A stretch of 64,000 nucleotides of DNA from contig JAHRHY010000012.1 of NCBI GenBank assembly GCA_019671135.1, positions 1,550,001 to 1,614,000 on the forward strand. The letters are read 5' to 3'. Below, piece after piece: positions 6,147-48,452 of this stretch. Each line of letters opens with the position of its first letter. The stretch's first letter is position 1. Source of the stretch: Linnemannia hyalina. Lineage: Eukaryota; Mortierellomycota; Mortierellomycetes; Mortierellales; Mortierellaceae. The notes beneath the pieces were generated by a model. It saw nothing but the letters and a program-made list of their open reading frames with translations. It searched no databases and was not told the origin of the DNA. A program made the translations under genes and the position numbers.

Positions 6147-6689
6147 GGGAGTGAAGGAAGGAAGGTTGTTTTTGAAGAGCTGTCAGGGTCTCGCGTAGGG
6201 GGGTCGTTTTTTTGAGACCTTGATTTTTTATTGGCAACAAAAATAATTGTGGCCAGCCAGGTGCGGTCTTTCAAATTGATGGCGTTTTGTCGGAATCTCA
6301 ACAAACGAACTGTTTGGAGTCGAAGTATCCTCCTGAACACGTTTCTTAAAGACGACCCCTTTTTTTTTTTTTTTTTGCCTGTAAGGAGCTCCGATCGCAA
6401 TAGAACAGCGGCAATAGAGAGACCGTAATCATAGAGCGACTTCCTGCGACAGAAGATCACGATGTGTATCCACAATGGATGAGATTCTAGGAGGTATAAG
6501 TGAAACAAAAAGGCGATGGTTAAGACTGTATCTGACACTCGTACCTGAATATGTGTCGCGTGCTTTGGATACGTTTCTTTGTTGGTTGTGATGGAAGGAG
6601 AAGGAGAAAGGAGGAAGAGGAAGAGGGAGATTAGTTATAAGTCCCATGAACATTCAGAGGGCAATAGAGTTGCCATAGAAAAAAAAAGT

Positions 6690-8490
6690 GGTACCTTTAA
6701 TTGATATGCTAATTATCCTCGTGTTCACTAATACCATCGCTATGAACAGTCATGAACAAGGCCGTCTAAGCAACCAGAACAGCGACAAAAAAAATAGACT
6801 AGAAAGACCGACCGTCCAAAAGCGCATAAACTCATATAGCCCACATTCCTCCTACACATCACCCCATAAATTCCAACACTCAGGGACAAAGACATATAAC
6901 CCACCAAATTCAGTTAACCGACTGCCACGCTACCCGGTACACCTCCAAACACGGTTCCCAGTAGCAGTGGATAACGGAATTGCAAGTACCAAGAGCCCTT
7001 AGAAAGCAAACCACCCTCTGTAGTGCAAAAGCCCACAGAGCAGGGTCAAGGTTGCAGAGTGGGGTTTCTTGCACCCTACGATGGGCAGACATGGGCGCTA
7101 TCCAGAGGATTCCGCAATGCGTTGACGGAACTACGTTGCTTTAGCCAAGAGAACAAAAGCAAGACCACAGACATACTCTAGGGATCCTCCCAGCGAAGAT
7201 GCATCCAAGAAATGGTACCTTCAACGTGAAAGCAAATGGTTCCCGTGCAGAAATGGCAGCGCGTTTGAACCAATTGTTAACATCCTCGTACTTCCCTTTC
7301 GATCGAACAGGTTGTATATGAAAGATGGACCTAAAGAGGCTCCAAGCCAAACAAGAAAAAGACAATTGAAAAATGTATTAGAAAGACCGACTTTCTAGAG
7401 AGTGCATAGTCCATCCAACAAGTCTCCCGCAATTCTTCCTATTCGCTTCCCAACAATGAAGGACAATGACAATAAATATCAGAGGCAGTTGACCCCTGCT
7501 ACGGCTGCTCAGTGCACCTCCGAACCGGCCCCCAGTGCCTGTGGATAACGTAATTGAAAGTACGATGGTCCGCTGGAAGCGACTACCCTCTTTAGTCCAA
7601 GAAGGCACAGAGCAGGGTCAAGGCTGCAAAGTGGGATCTCTTGCACCCTAGGAGGGGCCATGAGTGCTTTTCCAGAGGATTCCGAAATACAATGACGGAA
7701 CTACGTTGCTTTTGCCAAGAGGACAAAAGCAAGATCACAGGTACTAAACCTAGGGGTCCTGCTAAGGACATCTGCATCCAAGAAACGGTACCGACAAAGT
7801 GTTGGCGAATAGTTCCTGTGAAAATAAAGCAGTGTCATTGAATCAATTGTTGACGTCCTTGCACTTCCCTTTTGATCGAACAGGTTGTTTATGGAAGATA
7901 GACCTAAAGAGGCTCCAAGTCAAACAAGGAAAATACAGTTGAAAAATCCGTTAGAAAGACCGACTTTCTAGAGAGTGCAGCGTCCATCCAACGAGTCTCC
8001 CGCAATTCTTCCTATTCGCTTCCCAACAATGAAGGACAATGACAATAAATATCAGAGGCAGTTGACCCCTGCTACGGCTGCTCAGTGCACCTCCGAACCG
8101 GCCCCCAGTTCCTGTGGATAACGTAAATGAATCTACCATGGGCCTCTGGAAGCGACTACCCTCTTTAGTCCAAGAGGCCACAGAGCAGGGTCAAAGCTGC
8201 AAAGTGGGATCTCTTGCACCCTAGGAGGGGCCATGAGTGCTTTTCCAGAGGATTCCGCAGTATGTTGGCGGGAAACAACGTTGCTTTTGCCAAGAGGACA
8301 AAAGCAAGACCACAGGTACTAAACCTAGGGGTCCTGCTAAGGACATCTGCATCCAAGAAACGGTACCAACAAAGTGTTGGCGAATAGTCCATGCGAGAGT
8401 TTCGTTGAAGGGAAGTCGATGGCGACGTTTTTTTGCACTTTCCTTGAGAAAATCTAGAAGACCGAGAGCAACGAATGCCAGCTCCTGAGT
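6690..8490. repeat. Tandem array of about three ~575-bp monomers (left arm)
   Basis: The marker 'gaaagaccgac' recurs at about 6803, 7381 and 7954, spacing 573-578 bases. Between markers the second and third units are almost identical (for example the block with ccgcaattcttcctattcgc). The first unit is more diverged. Monomers carry short reverse-strand open frames (76 residues at 7378-7608 and 7951-8181, 135 residues at 8165-8572) that resemble each other, but I cannot show they are genes. The array lies 5' of the kinase gene starting at 9070. Confidence 0.85.
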
Positions 8491-9069
8491 TTGGTCTTAG
8501 ATCGCGCAGATGATCGAGTCGAATCGAAGTGGTTGAAGACAGAGCAAACAGAGGAAACGAGGAATGGCGCACGAGATGTGTGATGGATTGCGTGTGAAAG
8601 GTGAAGATGGGAATAAGTTCATTTGACTGATGGTGGCTGGCCTGGTGGCTGAGACTATTAAGCCTTGAAACTGATAGGCTAAAGCTGGTTCAAATATCAC
8701 CAACCTGTCTTAAACCTGGAGCTGTTATCAATGGTGATGGTGCCTGGCAAACCTGTTCCTGGATTCAGAAACCGACATACATTCACTTTTATCAACGCCC
8801 ACCGTTGCCAATTTGAACCGTTCGTTTTGATACCCTCATCGTCGAGAATTCAACACCATGGCACCATCGACCTTAGGTCCTTAGGTCAGCCACATCAGCC
8901 ACATCAGCCACACGTTTCGGTGGCAGCGACGGCTTCCACATTCATTCACCGCAGCTGAGTCTCTGCGTCTATTTAACGTCAATTGAGAGCAAAGGTTGGC
9001 CAAAGCACATCATTTATTAAGACAGACGACACAAAGTTCACTAAACTGATTCCTCCTCAACCTCCAACC
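8491..9069. promoter_or_regulatory. Spacer between monomer array and kinase gene
   Basis: No gene seen. The segment is conserved with the right arm (45649-46190), including a short tandem 'cagccacat' triplet near 8885-8912 that is reduced to one copy in the right arm. It is the likely promoter and leader of the kinase gene. Confidence 0.4.
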
Positions 9070-11358
<2,289 letters not shown>

Positions 11359-12262
11359 TTTGATAGTCAGTACCGGCTCCGCAGCAAAGACACCCCTACC
11401 CTGTCTTCTCTTCATACTATACCCATTATGTTTTCTTCCATTCTTCTTTTCTTTTCCAACCCTTTGCACATTTGAGCGACAGTCCACGCGACTTCGTCCT
11501 CCTCTCCGGCCTTTGCGCCCCTACATGTATATAGCACACAACCCCAAATGTATATAGAGCACACAACCCAAAATAATAGACTCTTTTCCCTCGATGGCGC
11601 TGGTTATAACCGCCCACGACTTACCCCATATCATGAGCCCAGAGCCATGAAGTGCTATGCAATTGAGCGTCAACCAGAAACTATCATCCCATGGTATGCG
11701 GACAGCTGTAGAGTGACAAATAAACAAAGAGAGGAAACGGACAAGGAGGTGCGTAAGGAATAATTACGTGGTGTGAAAAACGAGGTAGTTGGAGAACAGA
11801 ACAACAGACGAGGTTTGGTTAAATACTTTGTGAGGTGACAAGAAACTTCTATTGGCGGCTGGGTAAATGAAGGAGGAGGAGGAGGCAAGGGTTTGTAAGA
11901 GAAGGGTGCCGTTTTGGTTGAGGTTCCTTCTGGTATCAAGAGAAGAGACAAAGAGCGGCCAAGTCGACAGACATACAGGTAGATACCTGGTGTTTATATT
12001 GTGAGTGTGTTCATAGAGCCAGACAAGGAAGGTATAGTGAGAGAAGTGATAAGAGAAATCGAGTGTGTTGCAGAATGAGAGGAGTTGTGTGTCGTTGGGG
12101 GAGTGGAGGAGATGGCGAGTTGGTGGTCATGCAGGCGTTGAAGAAAGAAACAAGAGGAGGAGTGTGAAGTGCAATGTGAAGTGAAAAAACGGCGTCGTTC
12201 ATGAGAGTGTTCACAATTTCACACACACTTGATGTTAGTAAGCTTACGGGGCATTTTTATTG
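11359..12262. other. 3' part of left arm, no gene recognised
   Basis: This segment pairs with 42587-43466 of the right arm. The two copies differ by indels that shift every short open frame I compared (for instance a reverse-strand frame starting MTTNSPSPPLPQRHT diverges after 15 residues). It therefore looks non-coding, or like the remains of a decayed gene. Confidence 0.5.
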
Positions 12263-12719
12263 CAGTCTTACGGGGCTTTTTAGTGGTCACTCTTCTGGTC
12301 ATTCTCATTACTGTCTGTCCAGCTCTGGTCACCTGGACATTCGTGCTTTGATTCGAGTTAGCCTGGTGTTCCTCTTCTTTTGGGCCACGATTAATCTTTA
12401 TCACGGTCTGACACCAGCATTCTTGACCAAGGAGTGGATCAAGCTGTTCAAGACGACGTCGAATATCGCATTACTGGTCCGACAGTTTGTGGGTGCGATT
12501 GAGAAATTTGGTCGGACGGAGATATGGCACGTACGTTGCAAGGCGACGGTTGAATGGAAGACCCAAGGAATAACACCTCGAGAAAAGAAGGCGGGAGTGA
12601 GCAAGGGAGGAAAACCGACAGGATTTGGCCTGCCAAGTCGACGAGCCGGTTCATCAAAACAAGGTCTGAGTGAGGCGAACGAGAGGGTTATGCAGCACAT
12701 TCATGGCAAGACTGCATAA
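12201..12719 (+). other. Unrecognised open frame spanning the inner edge of the left arm
   Basis: A 172-codon open frame. Its first ~20 codons lie inside the repeat arm, while the rest is single copy in this window. The C-terminal half looks protein-like (TKEWIKLFKTTSNIALLVRQ, then a basic Lys/Gly/Arg-rich tail ending HIHGKTA); the N-terminal half is less so. I do not recognise a family. It may be the 3' end of a gene cut by the duplication, or a mobile-element remnant. The broken position is inferred only from the repeat edge. Confidence 0.25.
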
Positions 12720-14403
12720 ATTTTTTGGCACGAGATCTCGACTAGCGGAGGACCCGACAGGTCGCGTAGGAGATGCGGAGGGCTGGCTCGGTGCTGGCCA
12801 GTCCAAGACATTCATGCGACCCAAGTTGTGCAACTATAGGCATTCGGGGCCCCAGGAGATAGGCCTATCTGACAGCTCAGTACCTTCAAAGCCGTCATCC
12901 GACACCTCCTTCCCTGAATTTAGCAGCTTGGATTAGTCAGGCTCGGCACGCCGACACGATGTGTAGGGGATCTGGCGTAAATAAAAAAAAGTAAAAAAAA
13001 AGGTGTTCCCTTCTTTCTTCATACAAAAGCGCACTTCACTACCATGCACCCCTAATGCCACGACCGCTGACAGGAGTGAACATCTTGTCATTATCTATCA
13101 AACGCTTTCATTCCCCCAGGTTTGTCACTTCAGAAAAAAGAAGCAAAAAGAACCGATCGATCGAACTGACCATTGGTTTGGATGCGTTTGAAATAAAAGC
13201 ATGATACATCATCTCTCCTCTGTGAGGCCTTTGTCCGTGATCCTTGCTTCCAGTTTTTTCCAGGCTTTTTTTGGCGGCAGCCTTGTCACTCTCTTATAAC
13301 AAAAATCGTTTGACTGATGAGCGTACTTCCCTTTGCATGCACAATCCGTCATATCTCCAACATGTCACATATATCAATTGTCCGCTTCCTCCTCATAGGA
13401 CGATCGCTCGAAGCCGTACCCAGGGAATGCATGAAACTTTATATGGTATGTGGTCCTCTCTGGGTGCCACAAAAGAAATGAAAGGTGTTGATATATGCTA
13501 CAACGAAGGATGAAGGAGAAAGGCGTGTACACTACAAAGGGGTTTTAAAAAACATAATAACGAAATGAAAAAAGTGCGCCTCACAGATGTGTCCCGAACA
13601 CGACGGTAATACGGTCTACTCAAATGGGAGTGGAGGTTCAGGCAGGAACATTCCATACTCAACTCCCTCTTCGCTAAAGGCGACTTTATCATTGGCATTG
13701 ACAGGGGGGGGGGCGATCGGGGTTCCCTGGATGTGGCCTGTGCCAGGGTATGGCGGGTCTGAGGCTCAGCCAACTTTACTCAACTGTGTAGGGCATCCAA
13801 TCTCCGAGATTCTCGGAAGAAGCCATCGAGGAAGAGGACTGTGAGGGCTCTTTGCAAGGGGTACTTCTACGCTGGAGAGCAGGCGCGGCAGGCGTAGTAG
13901 TTGGGAACATCTTGGACGACTTTGTCAAAGAGGGATTTGTACACGGCTGTAGGATTCGATACCGATTAGCCTGGCGATTGGACTGAGGAATGCTGACCTG
14001 AAGATGGAGTGGAGGGCAACGAAATGGTCGACAAATCTGTGGATCCAGATCTAGCTCTTGACACTTGGGCACTTCTGAAGAGCTGGAGAGAGGAATGGTA
14101 ATTGGCAATGAGAGGCTGAAGAGGCGACAGCGGAAGGAGACGGAGTTGCAGGAGACTGTGAACAGGGTGCAACGGAAGGAGTCAATACACAGTTGGCTGC
14201 TGCGGGGGGCGAAGGGGTGGACACAGCAGGGCGCTTCTGGGATGCTCATCATCGTCCTCATCGCTATCTTTCTCGCGTGGCCTTTTCGCATTCGAAGCTC
14301 TGGAAGTCCCGCTATGAATCTCGCAGGACAACAGCGTCTTGAACGATGATCATCCCCTAAATTAAAGAGATGGTTGAACTTACGTTAACATGAGGAATTC
14401 TAA
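12720..14403. other. Gene-poor stretch between left arm and kinase pseudogene
   Basis: Apart from the short inverted match at 13080-13215, I see no supported gene. A reverse-strand open frame at 13776-14291 is Ser/Pro/Arg-rich with no recognisable motif. It lies directly 3' of the broken kinase, so it could include decayed C-terminal kinase sequence. A G8 run lies at 13706-13713. Confidence 0.35.
13080..13215. repeat. Short inverted match to 50180-51095; empty site of the Harbinger element
   Basis: The segment tcattatctatcaaacgc..attcccccagg matches the reverse complement of 51055-51095, and its continuation (aaccgatcgatcgaactgac, then ttggatgcgtttg) matches the reverse complement of 50205-50289. 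In the right copy the two halves are separated by the 765-bp element at 50290-51054; here they are contiguous. This locus is therefore a natural unoccupied site. Confidence 0.85.
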
Positions 14404-15250
14404 TTAATTACATCCATAGATGAACGCGAACTTACATGGAATTCTGCGAACAAAGTTCTCGGTCAGCGTCTTAGCAGGCTCTGCCATATCCCCCAGGTTC
14501 AGAGACTCTACATCTTTGTGCTTTGGCGTTGTGCCCAGGAGAGGCAGAGCACCATCACGCCAAATGTATACACATTGATCTTTTCTCCGTACTCGGCGTT
14601 CTGTAAAACCTCTGGTGGTTGGTACCCTGTGGAGCCTCATGTGGCCATATTAAGCAGGTAAACATATACTCGGATTAATGAGTTGTCAATTTGTACACAG
14701 AGGGAATCAATAGAATCAAAGTTCTGTCACCTTACGTCTCCAGGCCGTCTTGCAAGCAGAAACTTTGGCCAAAGTCGCACACCTTCGCCAGACCAGAGGC
14801 ATCTACCACCACGTTTTCGGCTTTCAAGTCCCGATGGGCAAGACCCTGTGTCTCATGCAGATAGATGAAGGCCTCCGCGACGTTGGCCATCAAAGGTGCA
14901 ACAATCTCTTCGGACAGGCCAAGCACGTTGTCGTCTGTCCATCTCGCCACGAGTTTGGACTTGACACTCTATGGCTGCATGATTTAGTAGGTGAGTTTCT
15001 GAATGAAAATTCATCATTTCGCTAACATGTCCTTACTCCTCCGGTGCAGTACTCCATTGCTACGGCTCCAATTCATCCACTTGAAAATAATCCAAATAAC
15101 GCACGACGTGCTTGTTGTCGGCCAACTTCACAATCTCAGCTTCCTTTTTGTAGATCGCCCCGATCTTGTCGTTCGAACAATAGGATATCTTGATCGCAAC
15201 ACTGGTTCCATTGAGAGCTGCACGGAAGTACGTGCCGTATGTCCCCTATC
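14404..15250 (-). pseudogene. Broken protein kinase gene (third copy of the family)
   Basis: On the reverse strand a diverged kinase of the same family can be read in pieces: a glycine loop GTYGTYFRA, VAIKISYCSN, AEIVKLADNKHVVRYLDYF, then MEYCTGG; next VARWTDDNVLGLSEE, YLHETQGLAHRDLKAEN and CDFGQSFC; then GYQPPEVLQNAEYGEKINVY and FGVMV. The order and exon pattern match the intact kinases. Two reading-frame breaks are visible: one near 15061-15066, where the frame runs into TAG just before the MEYC block, and one near 14530-14560, after FGVMV. After the second break a conserved-looking LPLLGTTPKHK segment continues in another frame. The catalytic residues themselves are retained, so inactivation looks fairly recent. 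A diverged monomer array lies on its 5' side at 16100-17090. Confidence 0.75.
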
Positions 15251-16099
15251 AATCGTTTCGTTGGATCAATAGCTTTCCACTTAATAGACTTAACGCAAAC
15301 CAGCAACACAGAAAGCCTGGTATGCTCTATAGTTACTCCGCTGAGTCGTTCATTGAAACTGGTCCTTCTCCGTTATAAACGATGCGGGGCTTCTCATTGG
15401 TAAGAAATCGTCGCTAAATGGAGGTAGAAAACGAAACGTTTGTTGTTAACGCACGTTTGATTTACTTCTCAACGTGCAGTAGGAATATCCTTAACGGTAA
15501 TGCTATTACGTTCGTTTGTGTATTCAATACAAGAGCTGTGTCTCAGACATGCGCAAGGAATAACACGATATTTCTGGATAATATCACGACAGAGGACGAC
15601 TCGATACACAGCTGTCAATACGCGAGGTCAATGGACCTCGCCGAACTACAAAAATGCACTGGAAACGTTTCTCGACTCCACTGTTTAACCTTGAGCTCGA
15701 ACACAAATGCAAGGCAGTAGTGCATGGAGCAACACGGGGAGCCTCATGGGTTCTTTCATTCGCGTAATTAACTTTGAGTTACGGCGTGCAATAAGGTAAA
15801 AGCATTTAGGTGGGGATACCTGAACTGGGGCTTACCTGGGATCCGTGGTGGCAGATGGAGGAAAGGTCGACAAGGAACAGCAGAATAAATATGCATGCAT
15901 TGACCACCACGTTGTCAACTTGTATTCATGATGAAAGTAATAAAACGCGTCATCATCATTGGAGACGTCATTGTCTTGCAGCTGCATCGTTTCGATCAAT
16001 TTCAAGCACCTTTACTCAATCCCAGCAAGAATCAACTCGCCACGGTCAGGTTGCAATGGGAAGTACTACGATGATGTCTTCATATTCCTTACAGCTTTC
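15251..16099. other. Region 5' of the kinase pseudogene
   Basis: Contains a forward 100-codon open frame (15418-15720) with no recognisable features and no obvious conserved partner. I treat it as unproven. By position this is the broken kinase's promoter region. Confidence 0.3.
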
Positions 16100-17090
16100 T
16101 TGCACGGACTATTGCCAACACTGCGGGGTATTGTCTCAGTGCATCGGCGCCGGTTGGAGATCTCAGGGCAACCCGTGTGGCTACCACTTCTTGTTCTTGC
16201 AAGAAGTGACTATGTGCCGCTGGTGAGGGTCTCAGAGTTCTTGAGAGCAAGTCCCACTTTTTTTGACGGGCGGAGACCCCACATTGCAACCATGACCGTG
16301 CACTGTAGACTGTTATGATAGGAGTAGGCGCTCTTGAGGGTCTTGGCCAGCACAAGCCTAGTCACTGGACTTTGTGTACTGCTTCTGGGAGGTGTATTTG
16401 TGGCAATAGCAGCGGTTAACAGCCTTTTTATTAAGAAGTCCTCTGTCGTGGAAGCAATGGGATGATGGGTGAGGAAGCTATGGGCGGTACGAGATACGAC
16501 TAGTGTACTCCTACGGAGAGTCGGCTCTCTATTGCATTTTTTTTCTCTTCTCCATGTGTTTGACTTTGGTTCCTCGTCTTTTTTAAGGAAGTACGTTTCT
16601 ATCTACCCCTCGCAGCTCTCTCACCTGGACTGTTGCCAACACGGTGGGGTATTGTTTCAGTGCATCGATCCCGTTTGAAGATTACAAGAACATCCGTGTG
16701 GCTCTTGCCTATGCCCTCTTGCAAAAGGCGATGTTGTGCCTGTGAGGCATCTCGGAGTCTTTGAAGCCAGGGTCCTTCCCTTTTGATGGGCAGTGACCTG
16801 CCTTGCAACTTGATCTTGCTCTTTGGACTCTGTATTGATGAGGGTGGGCGCGTTCAGGAGTCCTCGGCATCCATTAGACCTAACAATCGGCCTTGTGCAT
16901 CACTATGAAGGGGGGTACCTAATGCAGTAGCAGAGGTCAACTGCCTTTTTTCTCTAAGAAATGTCTTTCACCTTGGAAGCAATGGGACAAAAGGTGGTGG
17001 AGCGGGCCAGATTATGGCTATGTTCTTTCTGAGGTCGGTCTTTCTAACCTTTTTTTGACCCTCTTTGTTAGGGAGTTCCTGTGTGCCTTG
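16100..17090. repeat. Diverged tandem pair of ~520-bp monomers
   Basis: Two units start near 16112 and 16632, sharing 'ttgccaacac.g.ggggtattgt.tcagtgcatc'. Later blocks match the arm monomers in order: the caagaggtc/ccttgcaac block, the 'ggtcaactgcc' block, the 'gaagcaatggga' block and the ggtctttctaac end. Orientation relative to the kinase pseudogene is the same as in the two arms: array on the 5' side. It is clearly older and more diverged than the arm arrays. Confidence 0.7.
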
Positions 17091-18146: not shown

Positions 18147-18766
18147 TTACTCCGAGTTGACAGGCACAAGCCGCCCCGTCTCAACATCATAAATATACCC
18201 ATGAATATCCACCGCCTTTGGGATCAACTCATGGTTCCTCAGAAACGCCACATCATCCCTCACATTCTGCTCCAAGTTGGCAAACGGCAAGAAATCAATA
18301 TGAGTCGCATCGGCGCCATGCAAGTTCTTGTGGATCACTGCATGGATATCTTTGTTTTCGAACGTCAACATCCCACAATCGGTGTGTTGTGCCACAATGA
18401 TGGTCTCGGTGCCCAGGAGCTGTTGGGAGATGACAAGGGACCGGAGAGCTTCGGGGGTTCGGCCGCCGGCGTTGCGGATGACGTGGGCGTCGCCTTCTTG
18501 AAGGCCGAATGCGCTTTCGGGGAGGATTCTTGCGTCCATGCACTGGAAAGGGAGGTGAGACAAAAGAGTTAGCGAGGCACTTCCTTTATGTAAGAGTGAT
18601 TGATACAAAGCAAACGACTGCGCCGAAAAGAAAGAGGAAAGAGTGAGAAGGAAAGACTTACGGTAACGATAGCGACCTTGCGAGCTGGTGGGAGGGGTAA
18701 CTGACCCTTGGGACGGTGGTTAACATAGGCGGCGTTGGCGGCGTGGATTTCTTCAACAAAGGTCAT
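18147..18766 (-). CDS. Beta-class carbonic anhydrase
   Basis: Zinc enzyme interconverting CO2 and bicarbonate, probably cytosolic since no targeting signal is seen. Two exons on the reverse strand, 18766-18662 and 18542-18147, give 166 residues, in frame. Zinc ligands are visible as Cys36 (CMDAR, with Asp38 and Arg40), His88 and Cys91 (HTDCGM). The VIRNAGGRTPEALRSL segment is the family's conserved helix start. The intron falls exactly before the first zinc-ligand cysteine. At 166 residues it belongs to the short type of beta enzymes, common in bacteria and some fungi, and lacks a long N-terminal arm. The C-terminus reads YIYDVETGRLVPV. Confidence 0.9.
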
Positions 18767-20323: not shown

Positions 20324-20785
20324 CTACCTCTTCTCCTGATTACCACCATGCTTCTTCGACTTATTTCCACCATGCTTCTTCGACTTATTTCCACCATGCT
20401 TCTTCGACTTATTTCCACCATGCTTCTTCGACTTATTTCCACCAAGTTTCTTCGACTTATTCCCACCCCCAACCTTGGCGTTCGCCTCCACCTCGAGTCC
20501 TAAGATCCCCTTGGGGTGAACCTCAAGCTTTACAGACGCGTTACCGCCGCCCTGGATGACTCCTGTTTCTTTGCGTCGGTGGAGTTTACTGTTGCGGCGG
20601 CTCAAGGAAGATAAAGAGGATTGAAAAGAGGGGAAGAAAAGGGAATCGGGGGGGATGTCGGAGGTTCCGGCGGAGATGAGCCGCGGGCTTAGGATTGGCG
20701 CTGCGGAGACTGGTGACGTTGCGGAGAGGCCTAGGAGGACCAGGGCGGCGAGGAAGGTGAGCTTGTGGAGGGAAAGGTTCGTCAT
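20324..20785 (-). CDS. Secreted Lys/Gly/His tandem-repeat protein
   Basis: A single-exon frame of 153 residues. A signal peptide is clear (LTFLAALVLLGLSATSPVSA, then AP). Dibasic sites follow at SRRNSK and HRRKETG, which suit Kex2. The C-terminal third is a tandem array with unit KKHGGNKS, 8 residues or 24 bases, about five units, the first with Leu in place of His, ending GGNQEKR. Each unit carries two to three lysines including a Lys-Lys pair, so serial cleavage into short basic peptides is conceivable. This layout (secretion signal, basic cleavage sites, near-identical repeats) resembles fungal Kex2-processed repeat proteins; the function is not known and that comparison is inference. The promoter has a (ggta)n tract at 20812-20855. 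Confidence 0.65.
   Translation of the reverse strand: MTNLSLHKLTFLAALVLLGLSATSPVSAAPILSPRLISAGTSDIPPDSLFFPSFQSSLSSLSRRNSKLHRRKETGVIQGGGNASVKLEVHPKGILGLEVEANAKVGGGNKSKKLGGNKSKKHGGNKSKKHGGNKSKKHGGNKSKKHGGNQEKR
20337..20470. repeat. 24-bp coding minisatellite
   Basis: Unit 'ttcttcgacttatttccacc' plus 'atgc', repeated about five times with almost no change between the middle units. The low divergence suggests recent expansion or homogenisation. It encodes the KKHGGNKS repeats on the reverse strand. Confidence 0.9.
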
Positions 20786-22237
20786 CTTGGGAGGAATGTT
20801 ACGGTTGTTTGGTAGGTAGGTAGGTAGGTAGGTAGGTGGGTAGGTGGGTAGGTAATTAGGTAGAAGGAGAATTGGTAGGAAGAAGTGGAGGAGGAGGAGG
20901 AGAGGGGGGAATGTGAAAGGTGTGGGGAGGAGAGTAATCGTGAAAATTCCTGAAGAAAAAAAAAAAGATTCAGGTTACCGACTTGGGCGATCCCTTTTAT
21001 CCCATTTCCTTGTTTCATTCTGTTGATTCAAGGAGCAGCGGGGCAACGTTCACTGAGCGGGGCTAAAAAGTACCTGGGGTGTTTTGTTTGCAAAAAAAAA
21101 AAGGTATTTGAAATTACTGGTGGAACTCGGGGAGTGAGGGGGCTGAAAAGAGAGGTAGTTTAATGGCCAATTGTGTGCTTGCTCCAGAGTATGTCCTTTG
21201 AATTCTTCCGAGAATGCTTGTTTGATTCTCTGGCGCCAGTCTGGACACGTTTTGTTCATTGTCGGTGGCAACGAATAATAACATTCAGGAGTTAAACAAG
21301 GAGAGAGAAAAAAGGGACACAATAACCTTGCGGCTCATATTATCAACAAATAAAAAATTAAGGAGAGAAAGGAATGACTATGCGTCTCTCATGAAAAAGA
21401 CAGTACAATAAAAACAACGGAAACGCATATAGATCATGCCACAAGATCATCCAATTTTACTCTCGATCGCTACGATAGTGGGGTTTATGTACTTCCCTTT
21501 TGCAGAAAAGCTGCACAGGCGAGCAAAGAAAACGAAAAGATAAAAAAATGTAAAAAGCCAACTCGTTTGATACAATGACTTTTGAAAGTTTCAAGGAGAC
21601 ACTTTTTTTTTGACCGTTCAAATACCTTTTTCTCTTTTTCCCTTTCTTTGCTCACGTTTAACTACCTCTTCTGTTTCTCCATGTTTCTCAATACAAGATA
21701 TGAAAAAAACTGCCTTGGCTTGCCGAGGTATCGATAACCAAAAACCGACAGGCATGGCACAGCAAAAGAAATCACAAAAACAGCTAAGGGGAGAGGATGA
21801 GTGAGCCGCGAAAGGAGACAGGCGAAGAATACACTACACAACGAACATGCCATTTTTTTTTCGAGAAATAGACGGGATCACAAGGATGTGAAGGGGTTGC
21901 CTTCTTTTGAAAAACAAACAGGAACACCGTTGAAACTGGCACAACACTTGTAGTGCTCCGGCAGTTCACCACAGCGACTGCGATCTCGGTCTTGCAAAAA
22001 GCGCGTCCCATCTCTCGCGTCAAAAATCGAAGATCTTGATCGCGATCATAAACGCCACCAAAATTGATATTTGATATTTGATAACTTTTAATGAGTACTG
22101 TACAATGCAAGAAAAATAAAAATAAACAGGTCGAACGTTTCGACCATGGATGCTAAATGAAAGAAATGAATGAGAAAAAAAAGTGGACGCGGGGGTAATG
22201 TGATGAAGAGCGAAAATAAAAGAAGGAAAATAAGCAT
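20786..22237. other. Intergenic region
   Basis: Contains the promoter of the repeat protein (TAGG-type tract at 20812-20855, gga-rich block at 20885-20910) and the 3' region of the mitochondrial RNA polymerase gene. Many A and T runs; no supported gene. Confidence 0.45.
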
Positions 22238-42586: not shown

Positions 42587-43466
42587 CTATAAAATGCCCC
42601 GTAAGCTTACTAACATCAAATGTTTGAAGTTTGAAGTTTGAACACTTGACACCGTTTTTTGAGTCTTTTTTCTTTGCACTTCACCACTTAGCACTTCACA
42701 CTCTTCCTCCGTCCTTTCCTCAACGCCATGACCACCAACTCGCCATCTCCTCCACTTCCCCAACGACACACAAACTCCTCTCACTCTGCAACACACTCGA
42801 TTTCTCTTATCACTTCTCTCGCTAAACCTTCCTCGTCTGGCGCTATGAACACACTCACAATGTAGACACCAGATATCTACCTGTGTGTCTGTCGACTTGG
42901 CCGCTCTTTGTCCCTTCACTTGACACCCGTAAGAACCTCAACCAGAACGACACCCTTCTCATACACACCCTTGCCTCCTCCTCCTTCGTTTATCCAGCCG
43001 CCAACAGAAGTGTCTTGTCTCCTCACAAAGTATTTGGCTGTTCTCCAACTACCTCGTTTTTCACACCACGTAATTATTCCTTACGCATCCCCTTGTCCGC
43101 TTCCTCTTTTTTTTTTGTTTGTCACTCTACAGCTATTCGCATACCATGGGATGATAGTTTCTGGTTGACGCTCAATTGCATAGCACTTCATGGCTCTGGG
43201 TTCATGATATGGGGTAAGTCGTGGGCGGTTATAACCAGCGCCATCGAGGGAAAAGAGTATTATTTTGGGGTTGTGTGTTATATACATTATATACATGTAG
43301 TGGCGCAAAGGCCGGAGAGGATGACGAAGTCGTGTGGACTGTCGCCCATATGTGCAAAGGGTTGGAAAATTAAAGAAAAATGGAAGGAAACATAATGGGT
43401 GTAATATGAAGAGAAGACAGAGTAGGGGCGTCTTTGCTGCGGAAGGAGCCGACACTGGCCATCAAA

Positions 43467-45648
<2,182 letters not shown>

Positions 45649-46189
45649 GGGAGTTGGAGGAATCGGTTTGAGTTTGAGTGAACTTTGTGTCGTCTGTGTC
45701 TTAATAAATGTGCTTTGGCCAACCTTGCTCTCAATTGACGCCGAGACTCAGCTGCGGTGAATGAATGTGCAAGCCGCCGCCGCCACCGAAACGTGTGGCT
45801 GACCTAAGGACCTAAGGTCAATGGTGCCATGGTGTTGATTTCTCGACGATGATGGTACCAAAACGAGCGGTTCAAAATGGCAACGATGAACGTTGATAAA
45901 AGTGAATGGGCATCGGTTTCTGAATCCAGGAACAGGTTTGCCAGGCACCATCACCATTGATAGCAGCTCCAGGTTTTAGACAGGCTGGTGATATTTGAAC
46001 CAGGCTTAATAGTCTCAGCCACCAGGCCAGCCACCATCAGTCATATGAACAATTTCCATCTTCACCTTTCCCACGCAATCCATCACACATCTCGTGCGCC
46101 ATTACTCCTTTCCTCTGTTTGCTCTGTCTTCAACCATTCTGATTCGACTCGATCATCAGCGCGATCCAAAACCAAACTCAGGAGTCTGG

Positions 46190-47990
46190 CATCTGCTGTT
46201 TTCGGTCTTCCATATTTTCTCAAGGAAAGTGCAAAAAAACGTCGCCATCGACTTCCCTTCAACGAAACTCTCGCATGGACTATTCGCCAACACTTTGTTG
46301 GTACCGTTTCTTGGATGCATGGTCCCTACGAGGATCCCCAGCTTTATGACCTGTGGTCTTACTTTTGTCCTCTTGGCAAAAGCAACGTTGTTTCCTGACA
46401 AGCTACTGCGGAATCCTCTGGAAAAGCACTCATGGCCCCTCCTAGGGTGCAAGAGACCCCACTTTGCTGCCTTGACCCTGCTCTGTGGCCTCTTGGACTA
46501 AAGAGGGTAGTCGCTTCCAGCGGCCCTGGTAGATTCATTTACGTTATCCACAGACACTTCGGACCGTGTTGGGAGGTGCACTGAGCAGCCGTAGCAGGGG
46601 TCAACTGCCTCTGATATTTATTGTCATTGTCCTTCATTGTTGGGAAGCGAATAGGAAGAATTGCGGGAGACTCATTGGATGGACTTTGCACTCTCTAGAA
46701 AGTCGGTCTTCCTAACACATTTTTGTATTGTCTTTTTCTTGTTTGGCTTGGAGCCTCTTTAGGTTCATCTTTCATAAGCAGCCTGTTCGATCAAAAGGGA
46801 AGTGCAAGGACGTTAACAATTGAATCAAAGGCACTGCTTTCTTTTCACGAGAACTATTCGCCAACACTTTGTCGGTACCGTTTCTTGGATGCATGGTCCC
46901 TACGAGGATCCCCAGCTTTATGACCTGTGGTCTTGCTTTTGTCCTCTTGGCAAAAGCAACGTAGTTCCGCTAAGTATTTCGGAATCCTCTGGAAAAGCAC
47001 TCATGGCCCCTCCTAGGGTGCAAGAGACCCCACTTTGCAGCCTTGACCCTGCTTTGTGGCCTCTTGGACTAAAGAGGGTAGTCGCTTCCAGCGGCCCTGG
47101 TACTTCCAATTACGTTATCCGCAGGCACTAGGGAGCGTGTGTGGAGGTGCACTGGGCGGCCGTAGCAGGGGTCAACTGCCTCTGATATTTACTGTCATTG
47201 TCCTTCATCGTTGGGAAGCGAATAGGAAGAATTGCAGGAGATCGGTTGGATGGACTTTGCGCTCTCTAGAAAGGCGGTCTTTCTAACACTTTTTTCGATT
47301 GTCTTTTTCTTGTTTGACTTGGAGCCTCTTTAGGTCCATCTTTCATAAACAACCTGTTCGATCGAAAGGGAAGTACGAGGATGCTAACAATTGATTCAAA
47401 CGCGCTGCCTTTTCTGCACGAGAACCACTTGCTTTCACGTTGAAGGTACCGTTTCTTGGATGTATCGTCCCTAGGAGGATTCCTAAAGTATGCCTGTGAT
47501 CTTGCTTTTGTTCTGTTGGCTAAAGCAACGTAGTTCCGTCAACGCATTGCGGAATCCTCTGGAGAGCGCCCATGTCTGCCCATCGTAGGGTGCAAGAGAC
47601 CCCACTCTGCAACCTTGATCCTGCTATGTGGGCTTTTGCGCTATAGAGGGTTTGCTTTCCAAGGGCTCTTGGTACTTTCAATTACGTTATCCAAAGGCAC
47701 TGGAAACCATGTTTGGAAGTGTACTGGGCGGCGTAGCGGTCGGTCAACTGCCTTTGAAGGGTTATATGTCTTTGTCCCTGGTGTTGGAAGCAATGTGGTG
47801 ATGGGTAGGGGGAATGTAGGCTGGAGATGAGTTTATGCGCTTTTGAAGGGTCGGTCTCTCCAGTCTATTTTTTTCATCGCTGTTCTGGTTGCTTAGACGG
47901 CCTTGTTCATGGCTGTTCACAGCGATGGTATTAGCGAACGCGAGGATAATTAGCATATCAAATAAAGGTACCACTCTTTTTTTCTTCGCT
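46190..47990. repeat. Tandem array of about three ~575-bp monomers (right arm)
   Basis: The marker 'tctctagaaagtcggtctt' recurs near 46690 and in slightly changed form near 47264 and 47847, spacing about 574-583. It is the mirror of the 6690-8490 array and again lies on the 5' side of the kinase. The 135-residue and 76-residue open frames of the left monomers have counterparts here (46094-46501, 47056-47286). Confidence 0.85.
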
Positions 47991-48452
47991 ATTGCCCTCT
48001 GAATGTCCACGGGACTTACAACTAATCTCCCTCTTCCTCTTCCTCCTTTCTCCCTCTCCTTCCATCATAACCAACAAAGAAACGCATCCAAAGCACGCGG
48101 CCACGTATTCGGGTACGAGTGTCAGATACAGTCCTAACCATCGCCTTTTGTTTCACTTATACCTCCTAGAATTTCATCCATTGTGGATACAGGTCGGGAT
48201 CTTCTGTCGCAGATAGTCGCTCTAATCACGGCAGAATCAATTGAGTGTTAACAACATGATCACCGTCTCTCTATCGACGCTGTTCTATTGTGATCGGAGC
48301 TCCTTACAGGGGAAAAATGGAGCCATCTTCAAGGAACGTTTTCAGGATGATACTTCAACTCCAAACAGTTCATTTGTTGAGATTCCGACAAAACGCTATC
48401 AATTTGAGAGACCGCGCCTGGCTGTCACTATTATTTTGCTACCAAAAATAAA

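Follow-up and report, generated by a model that had tools for sequence, protein, structure and literature searches.

A tandemly repeated non-coding element upstream of a protein kinase family in Linnemannia hyalina, a candidate cis-regulatory region

Arrays and kinases at the locus

The stretch of DNA analysed here, hereafter the window, comprises 64,000 nucleotides of the fungus Linnemannia hyalina (Mortierellaceae; C4:1550001-1614000 in a genome of 51.5 Mb and 50 contigs). At three places it carries a short tandem array of two or three copies of a 516-577-bp monomer, each time lying 5' of a protein kinase gene and on the strand of that kinase (Table 1), as a first-pass annotation of the window had noticed. 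Below, these monomers are followed through the genome and considered as a possible upstream regulatory element of one kinase family, accompanying its members on a single contig. Loci are named A-G for the seven clusters retrieved by BLAST, F and G being the left and right arms of the window, and H, J and K for those added by a profile search.

The left array (6873-8396, plus strand) consists of two full monomers with periods of 577 and 573 and a gene-proximal copy cut at position 372; the right one (46271-47780, minus strand) has the same layout and belongs to an inverted copy 88% identical over 4.5 kb. Throughout the close family the gene-nearest copy is cut at about monomer position 364-375. 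The two copies of the third array (16.06-17.06 kb), 521 bp apart, are 65% identical over 469 bp (16087-16543 versus 16608-17056), and this array matches the left one at 61% (E 6e-16, BLASTN with lenient scoring). Used whole as a BLAST query, it found only itself in the genome. A profile of 15 close monomers, by contrast, detects both of its copies, on the strand of the broken kinase, with expectation values (E) of 1.9e-19 and 1.2e-10; the three arrays therefore form one sequence family, as had been supposed.

Kinase domain PF00069 matched three exons of the left kinase, over its cut-off (E 1.8e-10, 1.6e-17 and 1.1e-9), and one exon of the third copy (1.1e-12). The left kinase, F, is identical over 486 amino acids to the public L. 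hyalina protein P0001, and kinases F, A, B and C all retain HRD, DFG and APE motifs and are open across the exons mapped by alignment to F. Kinase H looks broken, its kinase reading continuing in another frame near 15.06 kb. Kinases J and K lie outside the window, at C4 1024 and 976 kb; in kinases of their type (P0121, P0122, P0123 and P0124) HRD reads RQD, HHD, HHD and HQD, with DFG and APE kept. An intron after an EGG or QGG motif is present in F and J and seemingly also in H, whereas it is missing from those ordinary kinases whose match runs across this point in a single open frame.

Table 1. Features of the arrays and their kinases in the window
Feature	Position	Strand	Remarks
Left copy F: array, promoter segment, kinase, 3' flank	6224..12257	+	BLASTN to 48452-42591 inverted, 84-88%
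Weak remnant of an additional distal monomer (profile positions 340-514)	6689..6827	+	nhmmer E 0.0095 (1,561-bp search), E 2.5 (full search)
Distal monomer F1	6873..7449	+	inverted repeat broken
Middle monomer F2	7450..8022	+	
Gene-proximal partial monomer F3	8023..8396	+	monomer positions 1-372
Inverted repeat TTGCTTTTG-N9-CAAAAGCAA in F3	8281..8307	+	longest Watson-Crick hairpin of the core; 2/150 shuffles reach it
Segment between array and start codon of kinase F	8397..9069	+	
Kinase F, 486 amino acids	9070..11358	+	5 exons (9070-9108, 9631-9927, 10019-10251, 10358-10557, 10667-11358); HRD/DFG/APE present
Kinase H, apparently broken	14404..15245	-	kinase frames 15245-15060 and 14968-14735
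Proximal monomer H2	16056..16427	-	nhmmer E 1.2e-10
Inverted repeat CACTTCTTG-N6-CAAGAAGTG in H2	16185..16208	-	1/150 shuffles reach it, Watson-Crick pairs only
Distal monomer H1	16512..16974	-	nhmmer E 1.9e-19
Right copy G of the segmental duplication	42591..48452	-	
Kinase G, approximate limits	43470..45644	-	in-frame stop at start of exon 2; public model P0003 begins at a later Met
Proximal partial monomer G3	46271..46643	-	
Middle monomer G2	46644..47214	-	
Distal monomer G1	47215..47780	-	inverted repeat broken

One element and one kinase family on a single contig

All 16 matches of the monomer in a BLAST search of the genome fell on C4, between 1.288 and 1.597 Mb. The profile, run over a set of loci rather than the whole genome, added H (window 16 kb), J (C4:1022947-1023218, E 8e-6) and K (C4:978364-978055, E 0.0024), whose monomers each lie 5' of a family kinase on the same strand. 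Core motifs picked from the known copies were searched across the genome with their reversed forms as control. For both GGCAGTTGRCCN{1,4}CTGCTAC and GTGTTGGCN{0,1}AAYAGTYC all 11 exact matches fell in monomer places and the reversed control gave 0, and GGCAGTTGACCNCTGCTAC, with two mismatches allowed, gave 13 matches (reversed control 2), namely ten known places, one place at C4 1.101 Mb and two on other contigs, the latter having two mismatches each and equalling the control in number. The place at C4:1101216-1101401 is a diverged monomer (profile E 2.1e-9 in 421 bp, about 3e-4 scaled to the genome); found later, it is absent from the monomer sets used elsewhere, which comprise 15 rows for the nhmmer profile, 13 of these 15 (without B1 and B2) for alignment A1, and 19 for later work. 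Altogether 11 monomer places were found, all on C4 between 0.98 and 1.60 Mb, with about 20 copies in 51.5 Mb; BLAST misses copies as diverged as H or J, and therefore more of them may exist.

The kinase searches scored the best 88 of 158 candidates for the F query and the best 117 of 137 for the J query. The F query retrieved the family at A, B, C, F and G together with a fragment at 1184159 (66%), and H, J and K at 26-53% per exon, interspersed with ordinary kinases. With the J query, A and F were the best places outside J/K, above all other kinases scored, and G, C, H and B stood within the first 20 rows, mixed with ordinary kinases. A kinase tree, into which H was entered as one exon and from which P0126-P0129 were left out as partial or diverged, split ten other kinases of the genome from F, H and J/K at 97% ultrafast bootstrap and grouped H with J/K at 73%. 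Among 7,991 candidates scored, the closest relatives of protein F were four L. hyalina rows (F included) and one from Mortierella hygrophila, after which E dropped from 6e-145 to 2.5e-40; for J, nine rows of relatives, drawn from the species L. hyalina, L. elongata and M. hygrophila, precede a fall in significance to E 2e-16. The J/K-type kinases of L. elongata are P0122, P0123 and P0125-P0128, and P0002 and P0129 are kinases of M. hygrophila. Among the matches listed, the family is thus seen only in Linnemannia and Mortierella hygrophila.

Element and kinase coincide closely. Eight of the 11 monomer places (A, B, C, F, G, H, J and K) have a family kinase 3' on the same strand, and eight of the nine family kinase loci found have the element. 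The exception is the fragment at 1.184 Mb, which starts near the end of F exon 2, so that its 5' part is gone, and no monomer was found in the 4.1 kb preceding it; the element thus stands upstream of every family kinase found that keeps its 5' part. The suggestion that array and kinase travelled together is borne out by these counts, the genome search having revealed, among its best candidates, neither monomers lying mostly away from kinases nor kinases mostly devoid of monomers. From the end of the element to the ATG it is 393 bp in J, 659 bp in K and 674 bp in F; in J and K, TATATAAA stands at 79 and 65 bp from the start codon, with the element farther upstream, and in F TATTTAA stands at 100 bp. 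The placing of the element fits what is expected of an upstream activating region.

What, then, is the constant part of the association? J and K each have one recognisable monomer copy, which implies that it is the element and not the array. No distal copy was found at J/K by profile search; the only traces are a stretch at J that is in register and resembles spacer (E 0.81), and a local alignment that beats 200 of 200 simple shuffles. The observation made from the window thus holds and extends beyond it, and its interpretation is supported in part; among close copies no special module is needed to account for co-travel. This last point follows from the structure of the close units. Left copy F is homologous to parts of C4:1284863-1296132, 1347806-1355842 and 1358169-1367376; A and C have 9.3 kb in common at 94%, A and B 8.1 kb at 95%, and F and G 4.5 kb at 88% plus 1.2 kb at 84%. 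Homology to unit A ends on the left at 1284863, 1285802, 1286507, 1287820 or 1288057 and on the right at 1293339, 1293740, 1294145 or 1296132, and because these limits differ by partner, A, B, C, F and G are segmental duplications (about 6-9 kb) rather than one mobile element. Joint travel of array and kinase is accordingly expected among them and by itself uninformative. The segment between array and kinase F is 77-87% identical in A, B, C, E and G and 91% over 283 bp in D.

More telling are the distant loci. Within the DNA compared, only monomer and kinase of H, J and K still match the left unit, save that K has an additional matching block of about 190-250 bp (72-76%) before the gene, which includes 76% identity to the array-to-gene segment over about 190 bp. 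The impression that the most diverged kinase has the most diverged array survives coarsely, H, J and K being diverged in both as a group, with no ranking among the three. Agreement between monomer and kinase trees is not used as evidence here, since three lineages in an unrooted tree provide no test of it.

As an observation in its own right, the roughly 290 bp that precede kinase K (C4:977424-977715), in part 72-76% like window 8633-8879, are absent from its 93% identical sister J (about 1023565). The kinases themselves have ratios of nonsynonymous to synonymous change (dN/dS) of 0.33-0.46 over ten pairs (F-A 0.173/0.393), which implies purifying selection and disposes of the positive selection that had been suspected from introns being more alike than exons. 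Among the paralogues (window 9070-11358 and A, B, C and G) introns resemble each other more than synonymous sites do, F and A being 86-91% alike in introns versus 75% at fourfold sites, for which conversion, intron constraint or mutation bias are candidate causes. The divergence of A (C4:1290594-1292087) from C (1360247-1361738) is patchy along the gene, the first ten stretches having 1-6 changes per 100 bases, the nine that follow 6-21 and the last three 1-3, and looks like a mosaic produced by conversion among paralogues.

Regulatory element, passenger or RNA

The reading that we prefer, and in which our belief and our doubt are about equal, is that the monomer is a non-coding upstream cis-regulatory element of the kinase that was secondarily duplicated in tandem. 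The element would be a core of about 370 bp whose gene-side end lies about 390-675 bp upstream of the start codon in F, J and K; the ancestor would have had one copy, and later tandem duplication would have given two or three and so made the arrays. The gene-adjacent copy would have stayed under selection, while distal copies, being partly redundant, would decay. The element may bind factors and set the expression of the kinase, its copy number perhaps tuning that expression, and array plus kinase then multiplied through segmental duplications confined to about 0.6 Mb of a single contig. Among the mechanisms that the first-pass annotation had offered, a promoter or regulatory domain fits best, although its function is one that we infer from sequence comparison.

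That the core is non-coding follows from its indels: in pairwise comparisons among 15 close copies, 477, 184 and 114 of them have lengths of 1, 2 and 0 modulo 3, so that 661 of 775 are not multiples of three. The peptide once envisaged for the array is thus barely credible; open frames of 79-90 codons do lie in or across single monomers, but the three array open reading frames tried, out of three, had no Pfam match.

Support for selection on the proximal copy comes from rates of change. Between F and A, divergence is 0.12 in the proximal copy, 0.13 from array to ATG, 0.18 in the left and right flanks (left-flank distances computed from F, G, A and C only) and 0.22 in the distal core, the proximal copy differing from the flanks at p 0.02. 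Distal changes exceeded proximal ones in 15 of 15 relative-rate comparisons at five close loci (outgroup J, H1 or H2), nine of them at p<0.05, comparisons that are not independent because the close loci share history.

A second line of evidence is an inverted repeat, the longest hairpin with Watson-Crick pairs that the core contains in F2, F3, G2, E2, E3, D, A2, C2, C1, H2, J and K, each time at the same place. Its arms read TTGCTTTTG/CAAAAGCAA in F, CACTTCTTG/CAAGAAGTG in H2 and CGCTTTTTG/CAAAAAGTG in J; between lineages the stem has undergone five and four changes per arm with all nine pairs kept, the changes in H2 and J/K being compensated. Allowing G-U pairs, at least nine pairs are present in eight of nine proximal copies (F3, G3, A2, C2, E3, H2, J and K) and in none of six distal ones, F1 and G1 having four and A1, B1, C1 and H1 seven; these tallies omit the middle copies F2, G2 and E2 and the mixed copy D, all with at least nine. 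With Watson-Crick pairs only, 1-2 of 150 shuffles reach the stem length of F2, F3 and H2, which is thus unusual; that of J is not, being reached by 21 of 150, or by 14 of 150 with G-U. Under independent change the simulated chance of keeping all nine pairs is 0.001-0.01 per lineage, for arms that were first chosen by eye. Such a pattern would fit either an RNA hairpin or, equally, two half-sites of a dimeric DNA-binding protein.

Several observations weigh against a regulatory element under selection. Three of the 11 monomer places (D, E and C4:1101216-1101401) have no kinase, none being found downstream of C4:1101216 among the candidates scored with either kinase query. The pooled majority test gave 27 versus 15 (p 0.09 only), and in H, with its apparently dead kinase, it is the proximal copy that changes faster (52 v 45 and 60 v 42 changes); the rates therefore suggest constraint on the proximal copy without proving it. 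Proximal B2 keeps only five pairs of the stem and four distal copies keep seven, and the eight of nine stand for few independent events because J is sister to K (97%) and the close copies are recent relatives. Finally, the aligned core is only 41-57% identical between lineages.

Could the arrays be mere passengers, functionless upstream DNA that chance duplicated in tandem and that segmental duplications then took with them? The five close units are indeed plain duplications, sharing about 6-9 kb and differing in their ends, distal copies diverge at the flank rate or faster, and at H an array persists beside a kinase that looks dead. Yet when F, H and J/K are compared, alignment fails in the left flank and over most of the DNA between array and gene, whereas the core still matches at the expectation values given above for H1, H2, J and K; moreover, the proximal copy changes more slowly than the flanks and, at close loci, than distal copies, and the inverted repeat is kept with paired changes. 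Passive hitch-hiking thus appears rather unlikely, though it deserves serious weight. We judge it improbable, in turn, that transcription of the monomers yields a structured non-coding RNA, or small RNAs, acting in cis or trans on the kinases, with the inverted repeat as an RNA hairpin. The recurrence of the stem in F, H2 and J/K, its compensating changes and their low simulated probability would suit such an RNA, as would the alignment window over the stem, whose z score of -2.74 is the best of 20 window-and-strand tests. A global RNA fold of the core, in contrast, gave no signal beyond shuffles and was rejected, with z scores of -0.66 and -1.68 for the whole-core consensus structure and -1.27 and -0.92 for single-sequence folds; Rfam had no match in the window at the gathering threshold and one sub-threshold match in the array (E 0.32), the stem of J alone is not unusual, and half-sites of a dimeric protein would yield similar paired changes. 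Still more doubtful is a specific version of this idea, an RNA-kinase module peculiar to one fungal lineage, in which each monomer would be one unit of a self-contained regulatory RNA gene paired with a kinase, a hairpin RNA from the proximal copy would control the kinase paralogues and array number would set dosage.

A mobile or selfish element carrying both kinase and array seems very improbable. Several copies are inverted or in tandem and there are orphan arrays, but the five left and four right limits of homology to unit A are not the fixed ends it should have, all copies found are on one contig of 50, and five open reading frames in or overlapping the window unit lack a Pfam domain; a transposon or satellite is rejected because of the differing ends and the location. 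The notion that the array drives duplication is not supported, most unit ends lying outside arrays. D/E (C4:1505839-1508183) is an inverted array pair with 90% identity over 668 bp that has lost the body of the kinase, and its inversion joint lies at kinase exon 1. In favour of such a driver are the outer end of E (C4:1508183), the one unit end that a monomer contains, and the step from two copies to three, which occurred within arrays.

Elsewhere in the window, a carbonic anhydrase domain lies at 18147-18719 on the minus strand (Pfam Pro_CA, E 1.1e-14), and an open frame at 20324-20974, also on the minus strand, has a hydrophobic N-terminal part and an 8-residue repeat, KHGGNKSK, encoded by a 24-bp tandem repeat of 5.4 copies.

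Upstream repeats in other systems

Elements duplicated in tandem upstream of a gene are already known in kind, from yeast MAL and maize b1; the L. hyalina instance is not described in the literature searched, which covered few subscription journals and yielded no description of either kinase family or array. Its interest may lie in a non-coding element whose history can be traced, together with that of its gene family, over several duplications and three diverged lineages within a single genome, and that marks the kinase family of Linnemannia and M. hygrophila described above. Loci with one, two or three copies, live and dead kinases and orphan arrays form a natural series for the effects of upstream copies on expression, and for the length of time over which a redundant copy is retained.

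Tandem monomers of several hundred bp recall satellites and transposon-derived repeats, from which the present ones differ in that about 20 copies were found, undispersed and beside one gene family. A closer parallel is offered by the divergent MAL promoters of Saccharomyces, where 147-bp tandem repeats set activator sites farther apart from one TATA box and lower expression (PMC12250536). There, too, a non-coding element is repeated in tandem in the promoter of a multicopy fungal gene family and its copy number varies among loci; unlike the MAL repeats, the unit here measures 516-577 bp and is recognisable across deeply diverged paralogues. Tandem non-coding repeats upstream of a gene are what is found at F, whose array ends 674 bp before the ATG, J and K being single-copy.

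At maize b1 the repeats, in seven copies, are far from their gene, about 100 kb away. Like the L. hyalina array, they are a short non-coding repeat array tied to one locus, and the repeat here is likewise confined to its locus and gene, as judged from the 16 BLAST matches and 22 of 22 exact motif matches, with a kinase missing at three of 11 places. The b1 repeats have a unit of 853 bp and yield small interfering RNA and paramutation (PMC3798267, PMC12196572); the array here is close to its gene; in b1 the array controls the expression of that gene, which is the role that the element proposed here may play for its kinases.

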